Assembly: GCF_002944405.1 (NCBI RefSeq)
Contig: NZ_CP024310.1
Location: 682,001 to 746,000, forward strand
From: Sinorhizobium fredii
Lineage (GTDB): Bacteria; Pseudomonadota; Alphaproteobacteria; Rhizobiales; Rhizobiaceae
DNA length: 64,000 nt
Reading direction: 5' to 3'
Each line of letters begins with the position of its first letter. Position 1 is the stretch's first letter. Position numbers and translations under genes: made by a program. This document shows positions 17,834 to 44,390 of this stretch, piece by piece. The notes under the pieces were generated by a model. The model was not told the DNA's origin. It searched no databases and was given only the letters and a program-made list of their open reading frames with translations.

Positions 17834-17858
17834 GGAACATAATCCGATCTCGCCGGTT
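17834..17858 (+). promoter_or_regulatory. EcfG/RpoE2-type promoter upstream of the DUF3008 gene
   Basis: GGAAC at 17834-17838, 16 bases, GGTT at 17855-17858. It fits GGAAC-N18/19-TT, the consensus known for S. meliloti RpoE2. About 93 bp before the gene start. Confidence 0.6.
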
Positions 17859-17950
17859 CCGAGGGCCTCGACATGGCCGATGGCCCGGAGCCGAATGATG
17901 CGTGATCGCCAGGCTGCGGCCTCTCGGTTCGCGTGAGCGGAGGAAGAGAA

Positions 17951-18139
17951 ATGCCAGCAAAATCGAAGGCTCAGCAGAAGGCGGCCGGTGCCGCGCTCGC
18001 CGCCAAGCGCGGCGACATGAAAAAGAGCGAGCTCAAGGGGGCGTCCAAGGGCATGGCCGACTCCATGAGCGAAAAGGAGCTAGAGGAGATGGCGTCGACC
18101 AAGCGCAAGGGCAAGAAGGAACACGTGTCGAAGTCCTGA
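17951..18139 (+). CDS. DUF3008 family small stress-type protein
   Basis: 62 residues from ATG 17951 (MPAKSKAQQKAAGAALAAKR), preceded by GGAGGAAGAG. The protein is highly charged and Lys-rich with no hydrophobic core ('KGASKGMADSMSEKELEEMA', then a basic tail KRKGKKEHVSKS), matching DUF3008, a short family found in stress-induced gene sets of alphaproteobacteria. It is likely cytoplasmic, perhaps intrinsically disordered or nucleic-acid binding. An RpoE2-like promoter lies upstream. Molecular function is not known. Confidence 0.8.
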   Translation: MPAKSKAQQKAAGAALAAKRGDMKKSELKGASKGMADSMSEKELEEMASTKRKGKKEHVSKS

Positions 18140-18288
18140 GAGCGCACCCTGGAGGCCGATCTGCCGCCACACTTCTGGCGCCGTCAACCTTCGGCCGGTG
18201 ACGATCCGACTGCGCCGCTTGCGGCAAAGTTGTTCCAATTCAAGGGGATAAGGTTTTCGTGTCGGCTTCGTTTTGGTGATTTACACCA

Positions 18289-18313
18289 GGAACCGGGGAC
18301 CATATTTTAGGTT
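18289..18313 (+). promoter_or_regulatory. EcfG/RpoE2-type promoter upstream of the NepR-like gene
   Basis: GGAAC at 18289-18293, 16 bases, GGTT at 18310-18313, 28 bp before the ATG of the small gene. Spacing suits a short 5' leader. Confidence 0.6.
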
Positions 18314-18340
18314 CGGCACCCCGGTAAGAAGGACGGACGA

Positions 18341-18499
18341 ATGAGCGAACCAAAGGCCCGTACGGACGCAGACGCAGACATGGCCGTCGAGGAGCGGATC
18401 GCATTTCTGTTGGGCAAGATCGAAAAGGAACCGGTGCCGCAACGTCTGCTTGAACTGGCACAGCGGTTGCAGGAGGCGCTCAACGCCCGCAAGAAGTGA
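18341..18499 (+). CDS. NepR-like anti-sigma factor candidate (52 residues)
   Basis: Not long enough for usual gene finders. It starts at ATG 18341 with AAGGACGGACGA before it. After a charged N-terminus (MSEPKARTDADADMAVEE) comes 'RIAFLLGKIEKEPVPQRLLE', then 'LAQRLQEALNARKK'. This has the NepR pattern of two amphipathic helices around an 'EPVPxRLLEL' turn. NepR proteins bind and inhibit EcfG-type sigma factors and are released by phosphorylated PhyR. Its stop is 19 bp from the end of a convergent ECF sigma gene and it has its own EcfG-type promoter. The usual nepR-ecfG order is tandem, so the convergent layout is unusual. The family call is by pattern, not by search. Confidence 0.55.
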   Translation: MSEPKARTDADADMAVEERIAFLLGKIEKEPVPQRLLELAQRLQEALNARKK

Positions 18500-18518
18500 C
18501 GGGCCGGGGGTGCATTAT

Positions 18519-19040
18519 CTAGTTCAGGGGGTTTCCGTGCATCTGCACGGTCAACTCATCGCGCGCGCGGCTTAGTCGGCTCTTGATCGTTCCGATCGCA
18601 CAGTCGCAGATATCGGCTGCCTCTTTATAGCTCATGCCAAAACCCGCAACGAGCACCAGCACTTCGCGATGCTCGGGAGAAAGACACCCCAAGGCGGTCC
18701 GCAGCTCGCCATTGAGCACCGACCACTCCTGGGAAGGAGCCATTGGGATCGGCAACTCCGCGCAGTTCGTGCTTCCCGGGCCTTCACGCGTGCGAATCTT
18801 GTACTGCGTGCGGAACGCATTGCGCATGATCGTGAACAGCCAAGATTTGAGGCTCGTGCCCGGTGCGAACTGATCGATGCTGCGCAGGGCGCGAAGCAGC
18901 GTTTCCTGGACGAGATCGTCGGCCTCGAAGGACGCCGACGTAAAAGTCCGCGCAAAGGCCCGCAACGCCGGGATCAGGTCCACGACCTGCTCTTCAATGT
19001 GCGGTGAGGGCTGCGACGCGTGACCGGCGGTGGCAGGCAT
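18519..19040 (-). CDS. ECF-family RNA polymerase sigma factor, EcfG/RpoE2-like
   Basis: 173 residues from ATG 19038-19040. Upstream in-frame codons to 19301 exist but carry no ribosome site or sigma homology. Region 2 contains 'EADDLVQETLLRALRSIDQF' and region 4 'GMSYKEAADICDCAIGTIKS' followed by RLSRARDEL. These match EcfG/sigma-T group proteins that run the general stress response in alphaproteobacteria; S. meliloti encodes several (RpoE2, RpoE5). Nearby genes show repeated GGAAC-type promoters, so this sigma factor, or a chromosomal paralogue, probably transcribes the island. A weak GGAAC-N18-TT is also found upstream of this gene, consistent with autoregulation. Confidence 0.85.
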   Translation of the reverse strand: MPATAGHASQPSPHIEEQVVDLIPALRAFARTFTSASFEADDLVQETLLRALRSIDQFAPGTSLKSWLFTIMRNAFRTQYKIRTREGPGSTNCAELPIPMAPSQEWSVLNGELRTALGCLSPEHREVLVLVAGFGMSYKEAADICDCAIGTIKSRLSRARDELTVQMHGNPLN

Positions 19041-19091
19041 ATCAAATATCGCCCTTCTGGACCTGAGTACTTTTTTGGTGACGCGAAGGAA

Positions 19092-19116
19092 AATGCCTGT
19101 CTGCGGTTTTGGTTCC
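19092..19116 (-). promoter_or_regulatory. possible EcfG-type promoter of the ECF sigma gene
   Basis: On the minus strand GGAAC (19116-19112), 18 bases, TT (19093-19092), about 50 bp before the sigma gene ATG. The -10 part (CATTT) is weaker than the others. Confidence 0.35.
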
Positions 19117-19282
19117 TGGAGAGCCGGACAATTCGCGGCGTTTGGTACGGGAGCAGCGTCGAAATCGCTCATTCGCCGGTGCTCGCATCGATCGCCCCCG
19201 TCTCTCCAGGTCGGGCCAGAATCCGAGTATTTCTGCTTGGCACGATAAAGATGTTCGCCAGGAGGGGCCAAACGGTTTGCGG

Positions 19283-19308
19283 GAACCAAATGCTGTCGCA
19301 CTCGGTTA
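19283..19308 (+). promoter_or_regulatory. EcfG/RpoE2-type promoter upstream of the DUF1236 gene
   Basis: GGAAC at 19283-19287, 17 bases, GGTT at 19305-19308, 26 bp before the start codon. Confidence 0.6.
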
Positions 19309-19333
19309 GGTGGGTCCTAGAAAGGAGAAAATC

Positions 19334-19612
19334 ATGAAGAAGTTTGCCTTGATTTGTGCCGCCCTGATCCTCCCGGCATCAGCGATTGCCCAAACGACTG
19401 TCGTGCTGCCAGGTGAGGTCAGGACCTATGTCATGGAGCAAAAGACGCCATCCGTGGCCTTTGAGGGGGAGATCGTCGTGGGACAGCCCCTGCCGGAGAC
19501 GGTGGAGATCCATACCATTCCTGATCAGCCGGACTTTGCCTATGCGATCGTGAACGAAAAGCGGGTGGTCATAAATCCCAAGACCCGCGCGGTCGTGGAG
19601 GTCGTTCAGTAA
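19334..19612 (+). CDS. DUF1236 family exported protein
   Basis: 92 residues from ATG 19334, behind AAAGGAG. A signal peptide (MKKFALICAALILPASAIAQ) is followed by the DUF1236 pattern 'VVLPGEVRTYVMEQ' and the closing 'YAIVNEKRVVINPKTRAVVE'. Family members occur as single or tandem copies in rhizobial periplasmic proteins and resemble RcnB/PepSY-like small beta folds. Function unknown. An RpoE2-like promoter 26 bp upstream points to induction under general stress. Confidence 0.8.
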   Translation: MKKFALICAALILPASAIAQTTVVLPGEVRTYVMEQKTPSVAFEGEIVVGQPLPETVEIHTIPDQPDFAYAIVNEKRVVINPKTRAVVEVVQ

Positions 19613-19673
19613 TAATTCAAATTGCGGCATGGCGGACTTCTTCCATGCCGCACTTCTGGTCTGTGAGGCGACC

Positions 19674-19940
19674 ATGCAGGATATTGAATTTCAGCTGGCA
19701 GCCCACCGGGAAATCCTAATTGCCATCCTTTCGGCGCTGGCGCGCCACGAGGATGTTTGGCCGGAGATCAACCGTGTCCTCGACGAGGTCCGGGTTGTCC
19801 AGGATCATGAGGAAGATCCCGGAATCGTCCCCTCGGAGGCCTTCGCGAGGCAAAATGCAATGACGGAGGAGATCACCGCCATTCTTCGGGCCGCCACGAT
19901 GCGCGCCGCGCTCGATCCGGATTCACCGCGACGCGGTTAA
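19674..19940 (+). CDS. Hypothetical protein, helical, rhizobial type
   Basis: 88 residues from ATG 19674 (MQDIEFQLAAHREILIAILS), preceded by GAGGCG. An ATG at 19629 would add 15 residues but has no ribosome site. The sequence is all-helical and acidic, with 'HEEDPGIVPSEAFARQNAMT' in the middle, a conserved-looking segment. No domain is recognised with confidence. It lies 61 bp after the DUF1236 gene on the same strand and could share its promoter. Confidence 0.6.
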   Translation: MQDIEFQLAAHREILIAILSALARHEDVWPEINRVLDEVRVVQDHEEDPGIVPSEAFARQNAMTEEITAILRAATMRAALDPDSPRRG

Positions 19941-19965
19941 ACAGCAAAGCCAAGAAAATTTGTAG

Positions 19966-19991
19966 GGAACCGCACTCTCTGTTGGCGCGTT
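19966..19991 (+). promoter_or_regulatory. EcfG/RpoE2-type promoter, full consensus
   Basis: GGAAC at 19966-19970, 17 bases, CGTT at 19988-19991. This is the closest match to GGAAC-N16/17-CGTT in the window and precedes the small basic ORF, CBS and DUF982 genes. Confidence 0.7.
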
Positions 19992-20046
19992 AACCGAAAG
20001 TCCGCGCGTTTGCGCGGAGGTCCACGTCAACAGAAGGGATTGAATC

Positions 20047-20253
20047 GTGCGACAGCGAGTGAAGAAAATGCGTCCGAGGGTTGCCCGGCCGCCGGAAAAT
20101 CCAAATCACAGCAAGAAGGCGCAACGGAACGCATGGCAACCGCAAGTGGCCGTGCCGCATCAGGTCGACCTGCCGCTCAAGAAATCGCCGGATGAGGAAA
20201 TCGCGGTGCCGGCCTCCGTCAATGGCAGGAGCCTTGTAGATGGCCGGCCCTGA
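20047..20253 (+). CDS. Small basic hypothetical protein
   Basis: 68 residues from a GTG at 20047 with AGAAGG nine bases upstream. The product is rich in Arg, Pro and Lys ('VKKMRPRVARPPENPNHSKK'), with no hydrophobic segment. Its end overlaps the CBS gene start by 14 bases, which suggests translational coupling, and it directly follows the strongest stress promoter. It could be a nucleic-acid-binding or disordered stress protein. A chance open frame cannot be excluded. Confidence 0.45.
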   Translation: MRQRVKKMRPRVARPPENPNHSKKAQRNAWQPQVAVPHQVDLPLKKSPDEEIAVPASVNGRSLVDGRP

Positions 20254-20737
20254 GGAAAAGGCCCTTATGGATAAGGCGTCGCGCGTCCGCGATGTGATGT
20301 CACGCCAGGTCTACACCGTTTCACCGACCGATACGGCGCAGTCCGTCGCCCGGCTGATGAAGGAGACCGGAGTGGGCGCATTGCCGGTCGAAGTTCCGGG
20401 GGTGGGTACGATCCTCGGAATCGTCACCGATCGCGACATCCTGATCTCGGTCGTCGCCCAGGGATTGTCGACATCGACGGCCGTGTTCGAGTTCATGACG
20501 GTGGCGGCCGAATCCTGCGAGGAAGGAGACAGCATCCTGCTCGCGGCCCAGAAGATGCACGATCTGAGGATTCGGCAGCTCGTCGTCGTCGACGAAAAGC
20601 GTCACGCCGCCGGCATCATCGCGCTCGCAGACATCATTCGCGTTAACCCGGAACTCGGCGGCCTCGTGCTGGACGGCATGTCCCGCCACGAACCGGAAAG
20701 ACAGCAGCTTGAAGGAATGACGCCATGCCCGGCCTGA
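20240..20737 (+). CDS. CBS-domain pair protein
   Basis: 165 residues made almost only of two CBS domains: CBS1 about 16-75 ('VRDVMSRQVYTVSPTDTAQS', 'ILGIVTDRDILISVVAQG') and CBS2 about 85-145 ('VFEFMTVAAESCEEGDSILL', 'RHAAGIIALADIIR'). Stand-alone CBS proteins bind adenosine nucleotides and modulate partner enzymes or transporters. The gene overlaps the ORF before it and the DUF982 gene after it (13 bp), so all three probably form one stress-induced transcript. The start ATG at 20240 could alternatively be at 20267 (MDKASRVRDV). Confidence 0.85.
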   Translation: MAGPEEKALMDKASRVRDVMSRQVYTVSPTDTAQSVARLMKETGVGALPVEVPGVGTILGIVTDRDILISVVAQGLSTSTAVFEFMTVAAESCEEGDSILLAAQKMHDLRIRQLVVVDEKRHAAGIIALADIIRVNPELGGLVLDGMSRHEPERQQLEGMTPCPA

Positions 20738-20994
20738 CGCAGGACCGCCTGTGGAGCGAAGCGGTGATACTCGAAGGAGAGAACCGCGTGCTTCGGGTTC
20801 AGAGCACGCGTGACGCATTGCTTTGCCTAAAGAATCATTGGCCATTGGCGGACGGAGAGGGGACTGCGAGGAGCGAGGCGCTCGCCGCCTGCGATCGGGT
20901 GATCGACGGACAGGACGAGCCGGATATTGCTCGCGGCGCCTTCATCAAAGCGGCCGAGGAAGCCCGGTTCACCGTCCATAGCTGGACAGAGTGA
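20725..20994 (+). CDS. DUF982 family protein (copy 1)
   Basis: 89 residues. DUF982 hallmarks are 'VQSTRDALLCLKNHWPL' (helix with conserved Trp-Pro), the mid cysteine 'AACDRVIDGQ', and the end 'ARGAFIKAAEEARFTVHSW'. Small rhizobial family, cytoplasmic, function unknown. It overlaps the CBS gene by 13 bp, fixing its place as last gene of that operon. Two more members lie about 3 kb downstream on the other strand. Confidence 0.82.
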   Translation: MPGLTQDRLWSEAVILEGENRVLRVQSTRDALLCLKNHWPLADGEGTARSEALAACDRVIDGQDEPDIARGAFIKAAEEARFTVHSWTE

Positions 20995-21015
20995 GAGCGC
21001 CGGATCGGCGACTGC

Positions 21016-21324
21016 TCATGTCCTGCTGTCGGATCGGTTCTTTCCGGCGGCAGGCGGCTCGTAGCGGCGCGCTATGGCGGCCTGAACTTCGGCCTGGAAG
21101 GCGAGCACTTGGCCGCGGATTTCGTCCTCCCTGAGGCCAAGCTGGGAAAGCTCATCCGCAAGCTTGCGGCATTCCATTTTCCAATATTGCAGAGCGGCGT
21201 TTCCGTGTACCCGGTCAAGTTCCCGGGCGCAACGATCGACGTCCCCGCTACGCGCCTCGAGAGGAAATGCGACAATCCCGCCGGCCTTCAACATGCTCGT
21301 CCGCTCGTTCACTTCGGCTTCCAT
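21016..21324 (-). CDS. DUF6074-like small protein
   Basis: About 102 residues from ATG 21324 (MEAEVNERTSMLKAGGIVAF); the frame extends to 21366 (116 residues). 'GGIVAFPLEARSGDVDRCAR' then a helical region with 'ALQYWKMECRKLADELSQLG' and 'REDEIRGQVLAFQAEVQAAI' resembles the short rhizobial DUF6074 family, which keeps VxxFPLxxR followed by helices. Role unknown. It runs opposite to the CBS-DUF982 operon and ends 22 bp after it. The family call comes from memory of the motif. Confidence 0.6.
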   Translation of the reverse strand: MEAEVNERTSMLKAGGIVAFPLEARSGDVDRCARELDRVHGNAALQYWKMECRKLADELSQLGLREDEIRGQVLAFQAEVQAAIARRYEPPAAGKNRSDSRT

Positions 21325-21442
21325 CGAATCACCCTGCACTCGCCTTAGGGGAAGCTCTATCGGCAAGATAGTTAATGATTTCCTCGTCCGGTCCCCGAAG
21401 GCAGCCCCTCAGCCGAGGAGGACAGATTATTTCCGCTCGCCG

Positions 21443-21467
21443 GGAACAAATCGGAGCGGTTCCGGTT
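21443..21467 (+). promoter_or_regulatory. EcfG/RpoE2-type promoter of a candidate small RNA
   Basis: GGAAC at 21443-21447, 16 bases, GGTT at 21464-21467. No plus-strand gene follows; instead an intrinsic terminator ends at 21578. Confidence 0.6.
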
Positions 21468-21473
21468 TTTCCA

Positions 21474-21578
21474 ATCGGAATGCGCGGAACAGTTCCCTCT
21501 CCGCAAGCCCCTTACGGATCCGCGCTTTTCCATAGTGCTGATGCGAATAATGGGCCCCGCCACCCGGCGGGGCTTTTT
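21474..21578 (+). ncRNA. Candidate stress-induced small RNA, about 100 nt
   Basis: Defined by a GGAAC-N16-GGTT promoter at 21443-21467 and a canonical intrinsic terminator at 21554-21578, with no convincing plus-strand ORF between. The 5' part can fold: GCGGAAC-type bases near 21483 face GTTCC and CTCCGC downstream. It has exposed pyrimidine runs (TTCCCTCTCC near 21491-21500, CCCCTT near 21508) that could pair with Shine-Dalgarno sequences, as known for stress-related sRNAs of alphaproteobacteria. The ends are inferred: transcription start about 7 bases after the -10. It does not match a small RNA I can name. Confidence 0.5.
21554..21578 (+). terminator. intrinsic terminator of the candidate small RNA
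   Basis: GCCCCGCC (21554-21561), loop ACCC, GGCGGGGC (21566-21573), then TTTTT. Perfect 8-bp GC stem. Read on the minus strand it has A before and no T after, so it acts on plus-strand transcripts. Confidence 0.8.
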
Positions 21579-21600
21579 CCGTCACCGAAGCGGGGATCAG

Positions 21601-22383
21601 TCAGCGCAGCAGCCCCTGTCCGCCGTCGACCCAGACGGGACTGCCGGTGATGTGCCGTGCCTCATCCGAGACGAGGAAGCGGATGAGTTCGGCGACGTCT
21701 TCGCTGCGCCCGGGCCTGCCGCCGGTGATCGGAACCTGTCCCTCCGGCCACTCGACCGCGATCGCCGTTTCCTGCTCGTGGCGCAAGCTCGTATTCTCGG
21801 CAATGCTGGTGTCGATCTCGCCCGGGCAGACGGCGTTGACCCGGATCTGGTGCCTCGCCAGTTCGAGTGCAAGTTGCTGGACCATGGCGACCTGGGCAGC
21901 CTTGGTGGCCGTATAGGCCGTTGCGCCCGGTGTGGTAAAGGTTCGCGTACCGTTGATCGACGAGACGACGACGATGGCGCCACCACCGCTTCGTTTCAGA
22001 TGGGGGACTGTCGTGTGCAGAGTGAGAAAGGTGCCCCGCAGGTTGACGGCGATCGTTTCGTCCCATTCGAAGGGCTTGAGATCGTCGATTGGCGCCCAGA
22101 CGCCGTTGATGCCGGCATTCGCGACGACGATGTCGAGCCCGCCGAAGTCGGACACGAGCTTGTCCACCGCCTCGCGCATCGGTGCTTCCTCGGAGACGTC
22201 TGCCTCGAGGACCAGCGCCTGTCCGCCCTCGGTGCCGATTTCTCCGGCGACATCCTCAAGCTCGGGCCGTGTGCGCCCGAGCACGCCGACCCTGGTGCCT
22301 CTCCTGGCGAGCGCACGTGCCGTGGCCCTGCCGATGCCGGATCCCGCGCCGGTGACGAGCGCGACAGAGGAGACGCCGCCCAT
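21601..22383 (-). CDS. SDR family NAD(P)-dependent oxidoreductase
   Basis: 260 residues, classical short-chain dehydrogenase length. Cofactor motif 'TGAGSGIGRATARALARRG' at about 11-29, NAG motif 'VVANAGING', catalytic Ser in 'VVVSSINGTR', Tyr-x-x-x-Lys in 'GATAYTATKAAQVAMVQQLA', and the closing 'HITGSPVWVDGGQGLL'. Substrate unknown. The start is only 2 bp after the stop of the gene upstream, so both share one transcript, probably from the stress promoter at 22858-22883. Confidence 0.9.
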   Translation of the reverse strand: MGGVSSVALVTGAGSGIGRATARALARRGTRVGVLGRTRPELEDVAGEIGTEGGQALVLEADVSEEAPMREAVDKLVSDFGGLDIVVANAGINGVWAPIDDLKPFEWDETIAVNLRGTFLTLHTTVPHLKRSGGGAIVVVSSINGTRTFTTPGATAYTATKAAQVAMVQQLALELARHQIRVNAVCPGEIDTSIAENTSLRHEQETAIAVEWPEGQVPITGGRPGRSEDVAELIRFLVSDEARHITGSPVWVDGGQGLLR

Positions 22384-22385
22384 GG

Positions 22386-22808
<423 letters not shown>

Positions 22809-22857
22809 TCATCAACCGGGCAAATTCTGACTCGCGCTTCCTCTGTGCCTGCAGGCA

Positions 22858-22883
22858 AACGGCCCTGCGTTGTTTTTAGTTCC
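22858..22883 (-). promoter_or_regulatory. EcfG/RpoE2-type promoter, full consensus, minus strand
   Basis: On the minus strand GGAAC (22883-22879), 17 bases, CGTT (22861-22858). It points at the 124-residue gene and the SDR gene. Confidence 0.7.
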
Positions 22884-23511: not shown

Positions 23512-23802
23512 TCACTCCAGCCGCCGATGTGGATCGCCGGCGAGGTCCACGCCGGCGCGCGCGGCGATCGTCAGGAAGGCTTCGCGGGAAGCGGCGAGGA
23601 AAGCGGCGCGAGCTTCCTCCGGTCTTTTGCGATGCTTCAGCGCCGCATTGCAGGTGCGCACCGCGCAGCCGTAATAGGCGCCGTGGCGGACCGGCCACTC
23701 GCTTTGCAGACACTTTATTGCGTCGAGCGGCCCAACGACGGTGCGGCACTTGCCGTCCAGCATGTTCAGGCTGACGGGTTTTTCCCAGGGGATCTCGATC
23801 AT
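23512..23802 (-). CDS. DUF982 family protein (copy 2)
   Basis: 96 residues from ATG 23802 (MIEIPWEKPVSLNMLDGKCR). 'VVGPLDAIKCLQSEWPVRHG', 'AVRTCNAALKHRKRPEEARA' and 'AFLAASREAFLTI' follow the DUF982 pattern, including the Trp-Pro and mid cysteine. Cytoplasmic, unknown function. It is followed about 190 bp downstream by the iron-permease-like gene and preceded 75 bp upstream by copy 3, all on the minus strand. Confidence 0.82.
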   Translation of the reverse strand: MIEIPWEKPVSLNMLDGKCRTVVGPLDAIKCLQSEWPVRHGAYYGCAVRTCNAALKHRKRPEEARAAFLAASREAFLTIAARAGVDLAGDPHRRLE

Positions 23803-23877: not shown

Positions 23878-24129
23878 CTATTGACTGCGAATCGATATGT
23901 GCGCTTCCTCCGCCGCCTTGATGAAGGCCTTGCGGGCTTTCTCGGTCGCGATCTTGCCGTCCAGTGCTTGGAGGCAGGTCCGCTTGGCGGCCGCCAGCGC
24001 CCGGCCGTGGTTTTGCGGCCAACGCGACGACAGGCATTCGACAGCCTCCCGCGTACTTTTCACGGCCCGATAACCACCCGTTCCGCCGAGCTCCAATTCG
24101 ACGGTCTTGTCCCACCAGAAACAGTGCAT
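23878..24129 (-). CDS. DUF982 family protein (copy 3)
   Basis: 83 residues from ATG 24127-24129 (MHCFWWDKTVELELGGTGGY). 'KSTREAVECLSSRWPQNHGR', 'AKRTCLQALDGKIATEKARK' and 'AFIKAAEEAHISIRSQ' are close to copies 1 and 2. A GGAAC-N19-TT element lies 40 bp upstream. The three copies keep the core but diverge at both ends, so they are old paralogues and not a fresh duplication. Confidence 0.82.
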   Translation of the reverse strand: MHCFWWDKTVELELGGTGGYRAVKSTREAVECLSSRWPQNHGRALAAAKRTCLQALDGKIATEKARKAFIKAAEEAHISIRSQ

Positions 24130-24194: not shown

Positions 24195-24542
24195 CTGGCG
24201 GCGGCGATGTCGCCGCAACAGCGGCGCGTGTGAAAGCCGCAGGGAACCCGATGGTTGCTGCCTCTTGCGTCTTGACGCCAAGCTCGATGTCGCTAAGTAA
24301 AGAAACGCTCCCGCTCTCAGACATCGGATCGCGGGAGGAACATTGGTGCCGGGCCCCTCTGGCGAGAGTTATTACGGCGCTCTCGTGATGTCGGTACCGC
24401 CAGCAAATCAGCCGGCGGATAACGCTACCATGAAAACTCCACTCATGCTCCACGCATGTGGCCGTTCGGCCGTGCGTTCTTTTCTATCCAACAACCTCTC
24501 GGTTGCAAACGCGACGAAGTCGCGGGCAGGGGAGGGTCGCCA

Positions 24543-25640
24543 ATGACACAGTCTCACTCGCAGTCGGCCGCACTTAACTATTTCAAGTGGGCCTTTCTCA
24601 CCACGGCCGCCGGTCTGGTTCTCGGCGCCTGGGTCGGTTGGCAATCGACCGGTACGCTCAGCGGCATGCTGACGGTCTTCTTCGTCTGTGCCGTCCTCGC
24701 TGTTCTCGAAATCTCTCTCTCTTTCGACAATGCCATCGTCAACGCCAACAAGCTCAAGGACATGACACCCGTCTGGCAGCAGCGGTTCCTCACCTGGGGC
24801 ATCCTCATCGCTGTCTTCGGCATGCGCATCGTCTTTCCGCTGTTGATCGTGGTGATCGCGGCGAATATCGGGCCGATCGACGCGGTCATCCTCGCAGCGG
24901 CCCGGCCGGAGGAATATGCCCGCATCATGCATGAGGCGCATCTGCCGATCGCCGCTTTCGGCGGAACGTTCCTGATGATGGTCGGCCTCAACTACTTCTT
25001 CGACCATGAGAAGGACGTCCACTGGATCGCCTGGATCGAGCGCAAGATGGCCCGCTTCGCGACCATCAGGGGCATCGAGATCGCCTTCGTGCTCGCCCTC
25101 ATTCTCGGTTTCTCGACCTTGCTCGAGGGGGAAGAGGCGATCGCCTTCGTGCATGCGGCGGTCTACGGCCTGCTGACATTCCTCGTCGTCGAGATCGTCG
25201 GTGGCCTTCTGGATGCCACGGAGCAGACGATGAGCGCCGCCGCCCGCGGCGGCTTCGGTGCCTTCCTCTATCTGGAAGTGCTCGATGCGAGCTTCTCTTT
25301 TGACGGCGTCATCGGCGCCTTCGCCCTGACGCAGAACCTGTTCATCATCGCCATCGGCCTCGGCATCGGTGCCATGTATGTCCGCTCGATGACGGTGATG
25401 CTGGTCGAAAAGGGAACGCTCAGCGAATATCGCTATCTGGAACACGGCGCTTTCTACGCGATCCTGATCCTCTCCGTGGTGATGTACTTCCAGACCCTCA
25501 TCCATATCCCCGAGGTCATCACCGGCCTTGGCGGCGCTGGCCTGATCGGCCTTTCGCTCTGGTCGTCGATTCGCCACAACAGACGCCAGGCGCAAGGCGA
25601 GGCTTTGGCGGGCGAGCCGGACGGGCGGCTTCGAGCCTAG
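24543..25640 (+). CDS. TerC-family integral membrane protein (DUF475)
   Basis: 365 residues from ATG 24543, which follows GGGGAGGGTCGCCA. About nine membrane helices. The acidic-helix motifs 'VLEISLSFDNAIVNANKLKD' (about 61-80) and 'LYLEVLDASFSFDGVIGAFA' (about 240-259) are the paired TerC/DUF475 signatures. The group includes tellurite-resistance-associated and Mn2+/metal exporting proteins. A role in metal export or metal loading of exoenzymes is inferred by family. It sits in the stress island but no GGAAC promoter was seen upstream. Confidence 0.88.
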   Translation: MTQSHSQSAALNYFKWAFLTTAAGLVLGAWVGWQSTGTLSGMLTVFFVCAVLAVLEISLSFDNAIVNANKLKDMTPVWQQRFLTWGILIAVFGMRIVFPLLIVVIAANIGPIDAVILAAARPEEYARIMHEAHLPIAAFGGTFLMMVGLNYFFDHEKDVHWIAWIERKMARFATIRGIEIAFVLALILGFSTLLEGEEAIAFVHAAVYGLLTFLVVEIVGGLLDATEQTMSAAARGGFGAFLYLEVLDASFSFDGVIGAFALTQNLFIIAIGLGIGAMYVRSMTVMLVEKGTLSEYRYLEHGAFYAILILSVVMYFQTLIHIPEVITGLGGAGLIGLSLWSSIRHNRRQAQGEALAGEPDGRLRA

Positions 25641-44261: not shown

Positions 44262-44264
44262 GTC

Positions 44265-44356
44265 GGCATTCCGAGGGGAGCGCCGAGCGGCGCTGAGACG
44301 GCGGTGAGCCGGACCCTTGAACCTGATCCGGGTCATGCCGGCGTAGGAACGGAAAG
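44265..44356 (+). ncRNA. TPP riboswitch (THI element)
   Basis: The conserved core is present: GAGGGGAGCGCC near 44272, CTGAGACGGCGGTGAGCCG near 44292-44310 and ACCCTTGAACCTGATCCGGG near 44313-44332, then GTCATGCCGGCGTAGGAACGG closing the aptamer. It binds thiamine pyrophosphate and switches thiD off when thiamine is plentiful. Confidence 0.93.
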
Positions 44357-44390
44357 AGGCTACCCTCCGCCACGTCTTCGCCTTCACCTG

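Follow-up and report, generated by a model that had tools for sequence, protein, structure and literature searches.

GsrN of Caulobacter crescentus, a small intergenic RNA that depends on sigma-T and is part of the general stress response, has an EcfG-family promoter and carries an exposed C-rich loop of six tandem C in its 5' half. GsrN pairs with the katG leader and activates katG, is stabilised by Hfq and is processed to a 5' isoform. In Sinorhizobium meliloti, RpoE2 reportedly activates more than 100 genes directly, rpoE5 included (PMC6180224; PMC3616915), and the sigma factor encoded by rpoE5 belongs to group ECF15 (PMC6180224). A map of transcription start sites (TSS) of this species reports 23 sRNAs with sigma-E2 motifs, whose coordinates are given in the supplements, and eight rpoE2-dependent intergenic regions (IGRs) bearing sRNAs, three of them on pSymB (PMC3616915); the regulatory impact of the RpoE2-activated sRNAs was called still unknown in 2018 (PMC6180224). 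Characterised rhizobial sRNAs carry anti-Shine-Dalgarno motifs that are taken to pair at ribosome-binding sites. For example, the Hfq-binding sRNAs AbcR1, AbcR2 and MmgR of S. meliloti have an unpaired CU-rich motif of this type in a stem-loop, AbcR1 being listed with an RpoD promoter and MmgR with RpoD/RpoN promoters (PMC7143759). A named RpoE2 sRNA of S. meliloti, SmelB126 (1325476-1325586), is multicopy, with four copies in strain 1021 (PMC3927594).

Here we describe an sRNA gene in a window of 64,000 nucleotides (the whole stretch of DNA that was analysed) from Sinorhizobium fredii. By analogy, GsrN is its closest functional parallel: both have an EcfG-family promoter and are small intergenic RNAs with a C-rich loop in the 5' half, and the window sRNA, which is likewise predicted to be part of the general stress response, could work like GsrN, judging from a comparison of layout. 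It differs from GsrN in its loop and in its location, which is an rpoE5-like island on another replicon and not the ecfG-nepR-phyR locus. The anti-Shine-Dalgarno motif in a stem-loop is common to the window sRNA and to AbcR1, AbcR2 and MmgR, whereas the promoter of the window sRNA is of the EcfG type. With SmelB126, its family has in common an RpoE2-type promoter, a terminator and a location on pSymB of S. meliloti 1021, but in contrast to the multicopy SmelB126 it gives one strong match per genome in 33 genomes. The sRNA gene is real, well conserved and ordinary in kind; its features and neighbours are listed in Table 1.

Table 1. Features of the sRNA locus and its surroundings (window coordinates unless another locus is named).
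Feature	Position	Strand	Remarks
EcfG/RpoE2-type promoter	21443..21468	+	−35 GGAACAA, 16-nt spacer after GGAAC, −10 GGTTT
Predicted sRNA transcript, 105 nt	21474..21578	+	approximate TSS from mapped rpoE5 offset
5' hairpin	21482..21525	+	stem 21482-21488 with 21519-21525; consensus and single-sequence folds
Hairpin loop	21489..21518	+	near-invariant, C-rich GUUCCCUCUCCGCAAGCCCCUUACGG; alignment and folds
Intrinsic terminator	21554..21578	+	8-bp all-GC stem, ACCC loop, TTTTT
DUF6074 protein (PF19551), upstream divergent neighbour	21016..21324	−	
Short-chain dehydrogenase, downstream convergent neighbour	21601..22383	−	
ECF sigma factor, rpoE5 ortholog	18519..19301	−	listed ORF start probably too far upstream
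Loop-less natural allele	L112, G016 C2:1910439-1910528	−	compared by eye with G015

An earlier note on this DNA had proposed a GGAAC-N16-GGTT promoter, which we found as stated at 21443-21467; the letters at 21443-21468, GGAACAAATCGGAGCGGTTCCGGTTT, contain the −35/−10 pair of EcfG (sigma-E2) promoters. The window holds eight instances of the loose motif GGAAC-N16/17-GTT compared with 2.57 expected, a count reached in 0 of 100 shuffles, and the tight motif GGAACAA-N14/15-GGTTT has a single occurrence in the window, at 21443 (mean of 0.00 in 100 shuffles). We aligned 25 copies of the gene, 23 obtained with a 241-base query and one with a 143-base query, plus that of S. meliloti 1021. GGAACAA and the 16-nt spacer are kept in all 25; the −10 element is GGTTT in 19 copies, AGTTT in five and GATTT in one, with GTTT as its core in 24 copies and ATTT in the remaining one. 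The sRNA gene hence has the GGAAC, 16- to 17-nt spacer and GTT-type −10 of an EcfG/RpoE2 promoter, and the S. meliloti 1021 ortholog has the full promoter. This promoter leads us to expect induction of the sRNA in stationary phase, under heat and in salt; together with the nearby stress sigma gene, it is our basis for inferring stress induction.

The coordinates also bear out the claimed perfect 8-bp GC terminator, with its stem formed by 21554-21561 and 21566-21573 and TTTTT at 21574-21578, and its distance of 86 bp from the promoter (21468-21553). The window has a single case of a promoter followed at an sRNA-like distance by a strong hairpin and a T run, and none of 300 dinucleotide shuffles has one, so that the combination of the two elements is not expected by chance. 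A generic terminator scan of the window did not list the hairpin at 21554-21578, probably because the scanner lengthens the stem by G-T pairs with the T run. The interval was said to hold no plus-strand ORF; mechanical ORFs do cross it, at 21164-21535 and 21375-21650, but these look unconserved. The transcript limits follow from the published rpoE5 promoter of S. meliloti 1021 (Table 1 of PMC6180224, where a start supported by RNA-seq as well as 5'-RACE is set in lower case), which we located at L053 2507-2543 and whose TSS lies 31 bases past the first G of GGAAC. The same offset places the TSS of the sRNA at approximately 21474 and the RNA at 21474-21578, with a length of 105 nt (about 100 nt in the earlier note) and a start that is approximate as its offset is borrowed from rpoE5.

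The gene is conserved throughout the genus. The 241-base query matched 23 of 24 genus genomes, counting the one it came from, and none of 16 genomes of other families. A covariance model trained on sequences from 24 of 33 Sinorhizobium genomes, a search that the earlier note had suggested, found one strong place per genome in all 33, with scores of 85-123 bits in 32 genomes and of 46.6 bits in the last (G016). Among the nine untrained genomes eight scored 85-121 bits, the ninth being G016, and the window copy, which belongs to the training set, was matched at 21470-21594 with 107.5 bits; extra matches inside genus genomes were weak, at 27.3 bits or less. When 394 genomes of the family were searched under stricter filters, the eight belonging to the genus scored at least 103 bits, and in the other 386 no score exceeded 32.9. 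Weak matches up to this score occurred in 60 of the 386 non-genus genomes; four of them were inspected and lacked both promoter and loop, and by their score we took the 60 as chance matches. A core pattern was present in 8/8 genus genomes and 3/386 non-genus genomes, compared with 6/386 for a reversed control pattern. The 20-base core occurs at 19 places in a collection of 84,980 species, of which 17 are labelled Sinorhizobium/Ensifer and all have the promoter, and two (a Planctomycetota MAG and Stutzerimonas stutzeri) are without it. With the 143-base query in BLAST, 162 of 199 family genomes, three of them of the genus, gave matches at E <= 1; the non-genus matches span only pieces of the query, the best (E 3.9e-5) covering 26 bases of terminator. 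The covariance, core-pattern and 84,980-species searches returned no credible copy outside the genus, and by these searches the family is confined to Sinorhizobium/Ensifer within the genomes covered.

The conserved segment has sharp edges. Among seven S. fredii-group copies, the 5' hairpin had a mean pairwise identity, with gaps scored as differences, of 0.89, compared with 0.84 for the promoter, 0.78 for the terminator and 0.71 for the linker. Identity was 0.55 in the 100 bases upstream of the promoter and 0.72 in the preceding 100 bases, which are part of the neighbouring gene; downstream it was 0.12 in the short gap and 0.63 at the 3' end of the next gene. Conservation consequently falls off at once on either side, and the sRNA gene survived the comparison proposed to challenge it, namely whether its sequence decays between close relatives that keep both flanking genes. 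Genus-wide conservation, retention of promoter and terminator, compensatory changes in the helices (below) and these sharp edges argue strongly for an independent small-RNA gene, whose existence we regard as nearly certain from the comparative evidence. It is intergenic, has its own promoter and terminator and contains no conserved ORF, as expected of a trans-encoded sRNA.

We searched for descriptions of the sRNA. Rfam release 15 gave nothing for it at the gathering cut-off in the window, at the S. meliloti locus or at eight further loci, and a lenient-threshold scan of the window gave nothing credible. It shows a weak likeness to BASRCI153 (RF02604), over the terminator only and with 17.5 bits where the cut-off is 137, and to anti-hemB (RF02837), with 16.4 bits where it is 49.5, and is a member of neither family. 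No coordinate beginning 1402 is present in the main texts of PMC2873474, PMC3927594, PMC2780559, PMC2573895, PMC10117765, PMC3616915 and PMC6180224, and none beginning 14026 or 14027 in that of PMC7143759. The 23 sRNAs of PMC3616915 have their coordinates in its supplements, and literature searches yielded no description of the sRNA. The status 'undescribed', as first assigned, is unproven. We lean towards the view that the sRNA is already catalogued, with its S. meliloti ortholog (pSymB ~1402640-1402748, minus strand) contained in the published TSS map. The ortholog, with its full promoter, may well be among the 23 sRNAs with sigma-E2 motifs, and the eight rpoE2-dependent IGRs with their three pSymB members (PMC3616915) point the same way, whereas the main texts are free of matching coordinates and the named RpoE2 sRNA SmelB126 is a different sequence. 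SmelB126 had been our first literature candidate for the identity of the sRNA and was rejected on sequence; its surroundings (40 kb; L056 and L057) contain no match to the model, and L057 lacks the core pattern. Such a cataloguing bears on novelty and would be compatible with the explanation of the gene as a stress sRNA.

The alignment supports a fold with two helices. The consensus structure has 10 pairs in the 5' hairpin and 10 in the terminator, with 96.6% of cells paired (97.6% in the 5' hairpin). Changes on both sides were seen at three pairs of the hairpin and at five of the 10 terminator pairs; the total of eight in 20 pairs was reached in 0 of 500 shuffles and slid partner registers gave two at most, in a test whose consensus structure was drawn from the same alignment and whose shuffles leave kinship in place. 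Single sequences are predicted to fold more stably than their shuffles, with z values of −2.94 for the window copy and −4.10 for the S. meliloti copy. The consensus fold adds a short outer helix GGA/UCC (21477-21479 with 21529-21531), the GGA strand of which pairs with the 3' end instead in the single-sequence fold of the window copy. The hairpin segment AGTYCCCTCTCCGCAA is nearly invariant in the 25 copies, and the pyrimidine-rich stretch that had been noticed in the predicted transcript is present as the C-rich loop, near-invariant across the copies of the genus. Its segment GUUCCCUCUCCGCAAGCCCCUUACGG is presumed to be the mRNA-pairing region. The predicted folds of the window and S. meliloti copies contain a further, inner helix UCCG/CGGA (21500-21503 with 21515-21518), which lies on mostly invariant columns and could mask part of the C-rich loop. 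The window copy deviates at conserved spots, with CCCCTTACGG versus the usual CCCCTACGG and GCGCTTTT versus the usual GCGCGTT.

One natural allele has lost the loop. G016 was missing from the matches of the 241-base query because its copy retains promoter, hairpin stem and terminator but has the entire loop gone between the stem arms, as seen in a by-eye comparison with G015, in which the loop is retained. This suggests that the function resides in the loop and that the loop was dispensable in the G016 lineage; the sRNA is dispensable at least in G016. The allele is a ready natural comparison, and a single-copy, genus-wide sRNA with a near-unchanging loop near rpoE5 provides a handle on the impact of RpoE2-activated sRNAs as well as a new covariance-model family for annotation.

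The genomic setting is shared by most copies. Within the flanks compared, and leaving out L054 (a duplicate of the genome of L007), the DUF6074 ortholog lies upstream of the sRNA at 16/25 loci, the dehydrogenase ortholog downstream at 21/25, in some with intervening DNA, and at least one of the two is present at 24/25. The ECF sigma gene is located approximately 2 kb upstream of the sRNA and its product is 77% identical to the S. meliloti L053 protein, which we identified as SMb21484 (rpoE5) via the published rpoE5 promoter. Six EcfG-type sites cluster within 5 kb around the rpoE5-like gene (window 17834-22883); some of them precede small genes, and the cluster suggests a general-stress island. 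Close to the sRNA there are also a CBS-domain gene and genes for two DUF982 proteins (20725-20994 and 23512-23802); a third ORF at 23878-24129 looks similar by eye. The RpoE2-like sigma gene of the same genome is on a different replicon, next to genes that, from their sequences, we take to be nepR- and phyR-like.

We consider it likely that the gene encodes an independent, trans-acting sRNA of the general stress response that is induced by RpoE2/EcfG and whose loop base-pairs at ribosome-binding sites. Its expression and sigma dependence, the binding of Hfq, the pairing with mRNAs and the direction of regulation are steps that we infer. Under stress, an anti-sigma switch would be released and RpoE2, possibly also RpoE5, would transcribe approximately 21474-21578. 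The 105-nt RNA would fold into a 5' hairpin displaying a 30-nt loop, followed by a variable linker and by the terminator, whose U tail is a plausible Hfq site. The predicted anti-Shine-Dalgarno segment of the loop, CCCUCUCCGC and GCCCC, would base-pair with G-rich ribosome-binding regions of target mRNAs, most likely lowering their translation or stability during stress.

Complementarity of Shine-Dalgarno sequences to C-rich loops by its nature easily arises by chance, and our search for targets gave a lead only. In one clade the word GCGGAGAGGGAA recurs at a distance of approximately 50 kb from the sRNA; it was rejected as a target site, as the four loci read by eye have it inside a reading frame of Asp/Gly-rich repeats and not at a start site. 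The pattern GGAGAGGGA-N0-9-ATG was found at 73 places in 12 genomes versus 38 for a reversed control, and among 30 of these places that were read glmS appeared in five genomes and a dehydrogenase-like gene in two. We compared glmS leaders by taking the best-scoring glmS-like copy, available in 30 of 33 genomes. The leader is GCGGAGAGGGAUAUG or similar in many of them, including S. meliloti 4H41 (G006), the group that holds S. psoraleae (G014) also has a GCGGAGAGGGAUAUG-like leader, and the leader of the window genome is GCGGAGAGCAAUAUG. Using the loop of the window genome for every genome, and 49 background leaders taken from the window with gene starts called by a rough script, the duplex energy of glmS beats all 49 in 20 of 30 genomes; six of the 49 match or beat it in the window genome and 15 in G022. 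No covariation between loop and glmS leader was seen in the 30 genomes, and one clade has GCGGAGUU in the leader despite an intact loop in those members that have one. We therefore keep glmS only as a lead for a target elsewhere in the genus, and as a weak candidate in the window genome. It is unlikely that the genus-specific sRNA is the post-transcriptional arm of the general stress response, a convergently evolved counterpart of GsrN linked to RpoE5 as the second ECF15 sigma factor, and that in part of the genus it directly occludes the glmS ribosome-binding site via 8-11 contiguous base pairs. If true, this occlusion would tie stress to the synthesis of amino sugars, precursors of the cell wall and of Nod factors.

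The same data bear on whether the near-invariant loop acts on mRNA start sites at all, or instead on a protein or on another sRNA by sponging or sequestration. A loop that hardly varies and the lack of covariation with glmS, the sole candidate target examined, would fit the latter, which we nevertheless judge to be unlikely, given that CU-rich anti-Shine-Dalgarno motifs such as those of AbcR1/2 are taken to pair with mRNAs (PMC7143759).

A trans-acting sRNA that pairs with mRNAs could also be a member of the GsrN family itself, candidates for which have been predicted close to the GSR locus of S. meliloti and other Rhizobiaceae (PMC5869019). The layout of the window sRNA, an EcfG promoter and an exposed C-rich 5' loop that the inner helix may partly mask, follows the same logic. 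However, those candidates were chosen by their proximity to sigT-phyR, and BLASTn homologs of GsrN stay within the Caulobacteraceae (PMC5869019), whereas the window sRNA gene sits near the rpoE5 ortholog and on another replicon, and has CCCUCUCC and GCCCC in its loop in place of six tandem C. With our model R1, no match was obtained in the 9.5 kb that surround the rpoE2-nepR-phyR-like locus of the same genome (L123). By eye, the strict EcfG motif occurs in L123 only upstream of the nepR-like and phyR-like genes and at one place within a reading frame, with no GsrN candidate near rpoE2. Membership in the GsrN family is thus quite improbable.

Finally, it is very unlikely that the locus is a small mRNA for a stress peptide: mechanical ORFs do overlap it and translation is reported for some annotated sRNAs of S. 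meliloti (PMC10117765), but in only 2 of the 25 copies does the transcript contain an ATG within its first 45 nt, the offsets from core to promoter span all three phases (15, 7 and 3 copies), and spacing within the core, the most conserved segment, differs by one base (16, 6 and 3 copies), indels that argue against a peptide and led us to drop it. The stress sRNA remains our preferred reading of the gene.

Other genetic elements were observed around the copies and in the window. Some group II introns insert behind terminators, and in S. meliloti 1021 pSymB a group II intron starts approximately 10 bases past the terminator stem of the sRNA (L053 ~5148), with a reverse transcriptase/maturase ORF at L053 5704-6882 and matches to Rfam RF02001 and RF01998. 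The 5' end of the intron is also present in strain CCMM B554 (L055 from ~6148), and strain 4H41 (L215) has no group II intron at the sRNA site. On the plus strand of the window, a terC RNA motif (RF03067, 63 bits) at 24341-24403 immediately precedes a gene for a TerC/DUF475 membrane protein (24456-25640), and a TPP riboswitch (RF00059, 74.2 bits) is located at 44264-44366.
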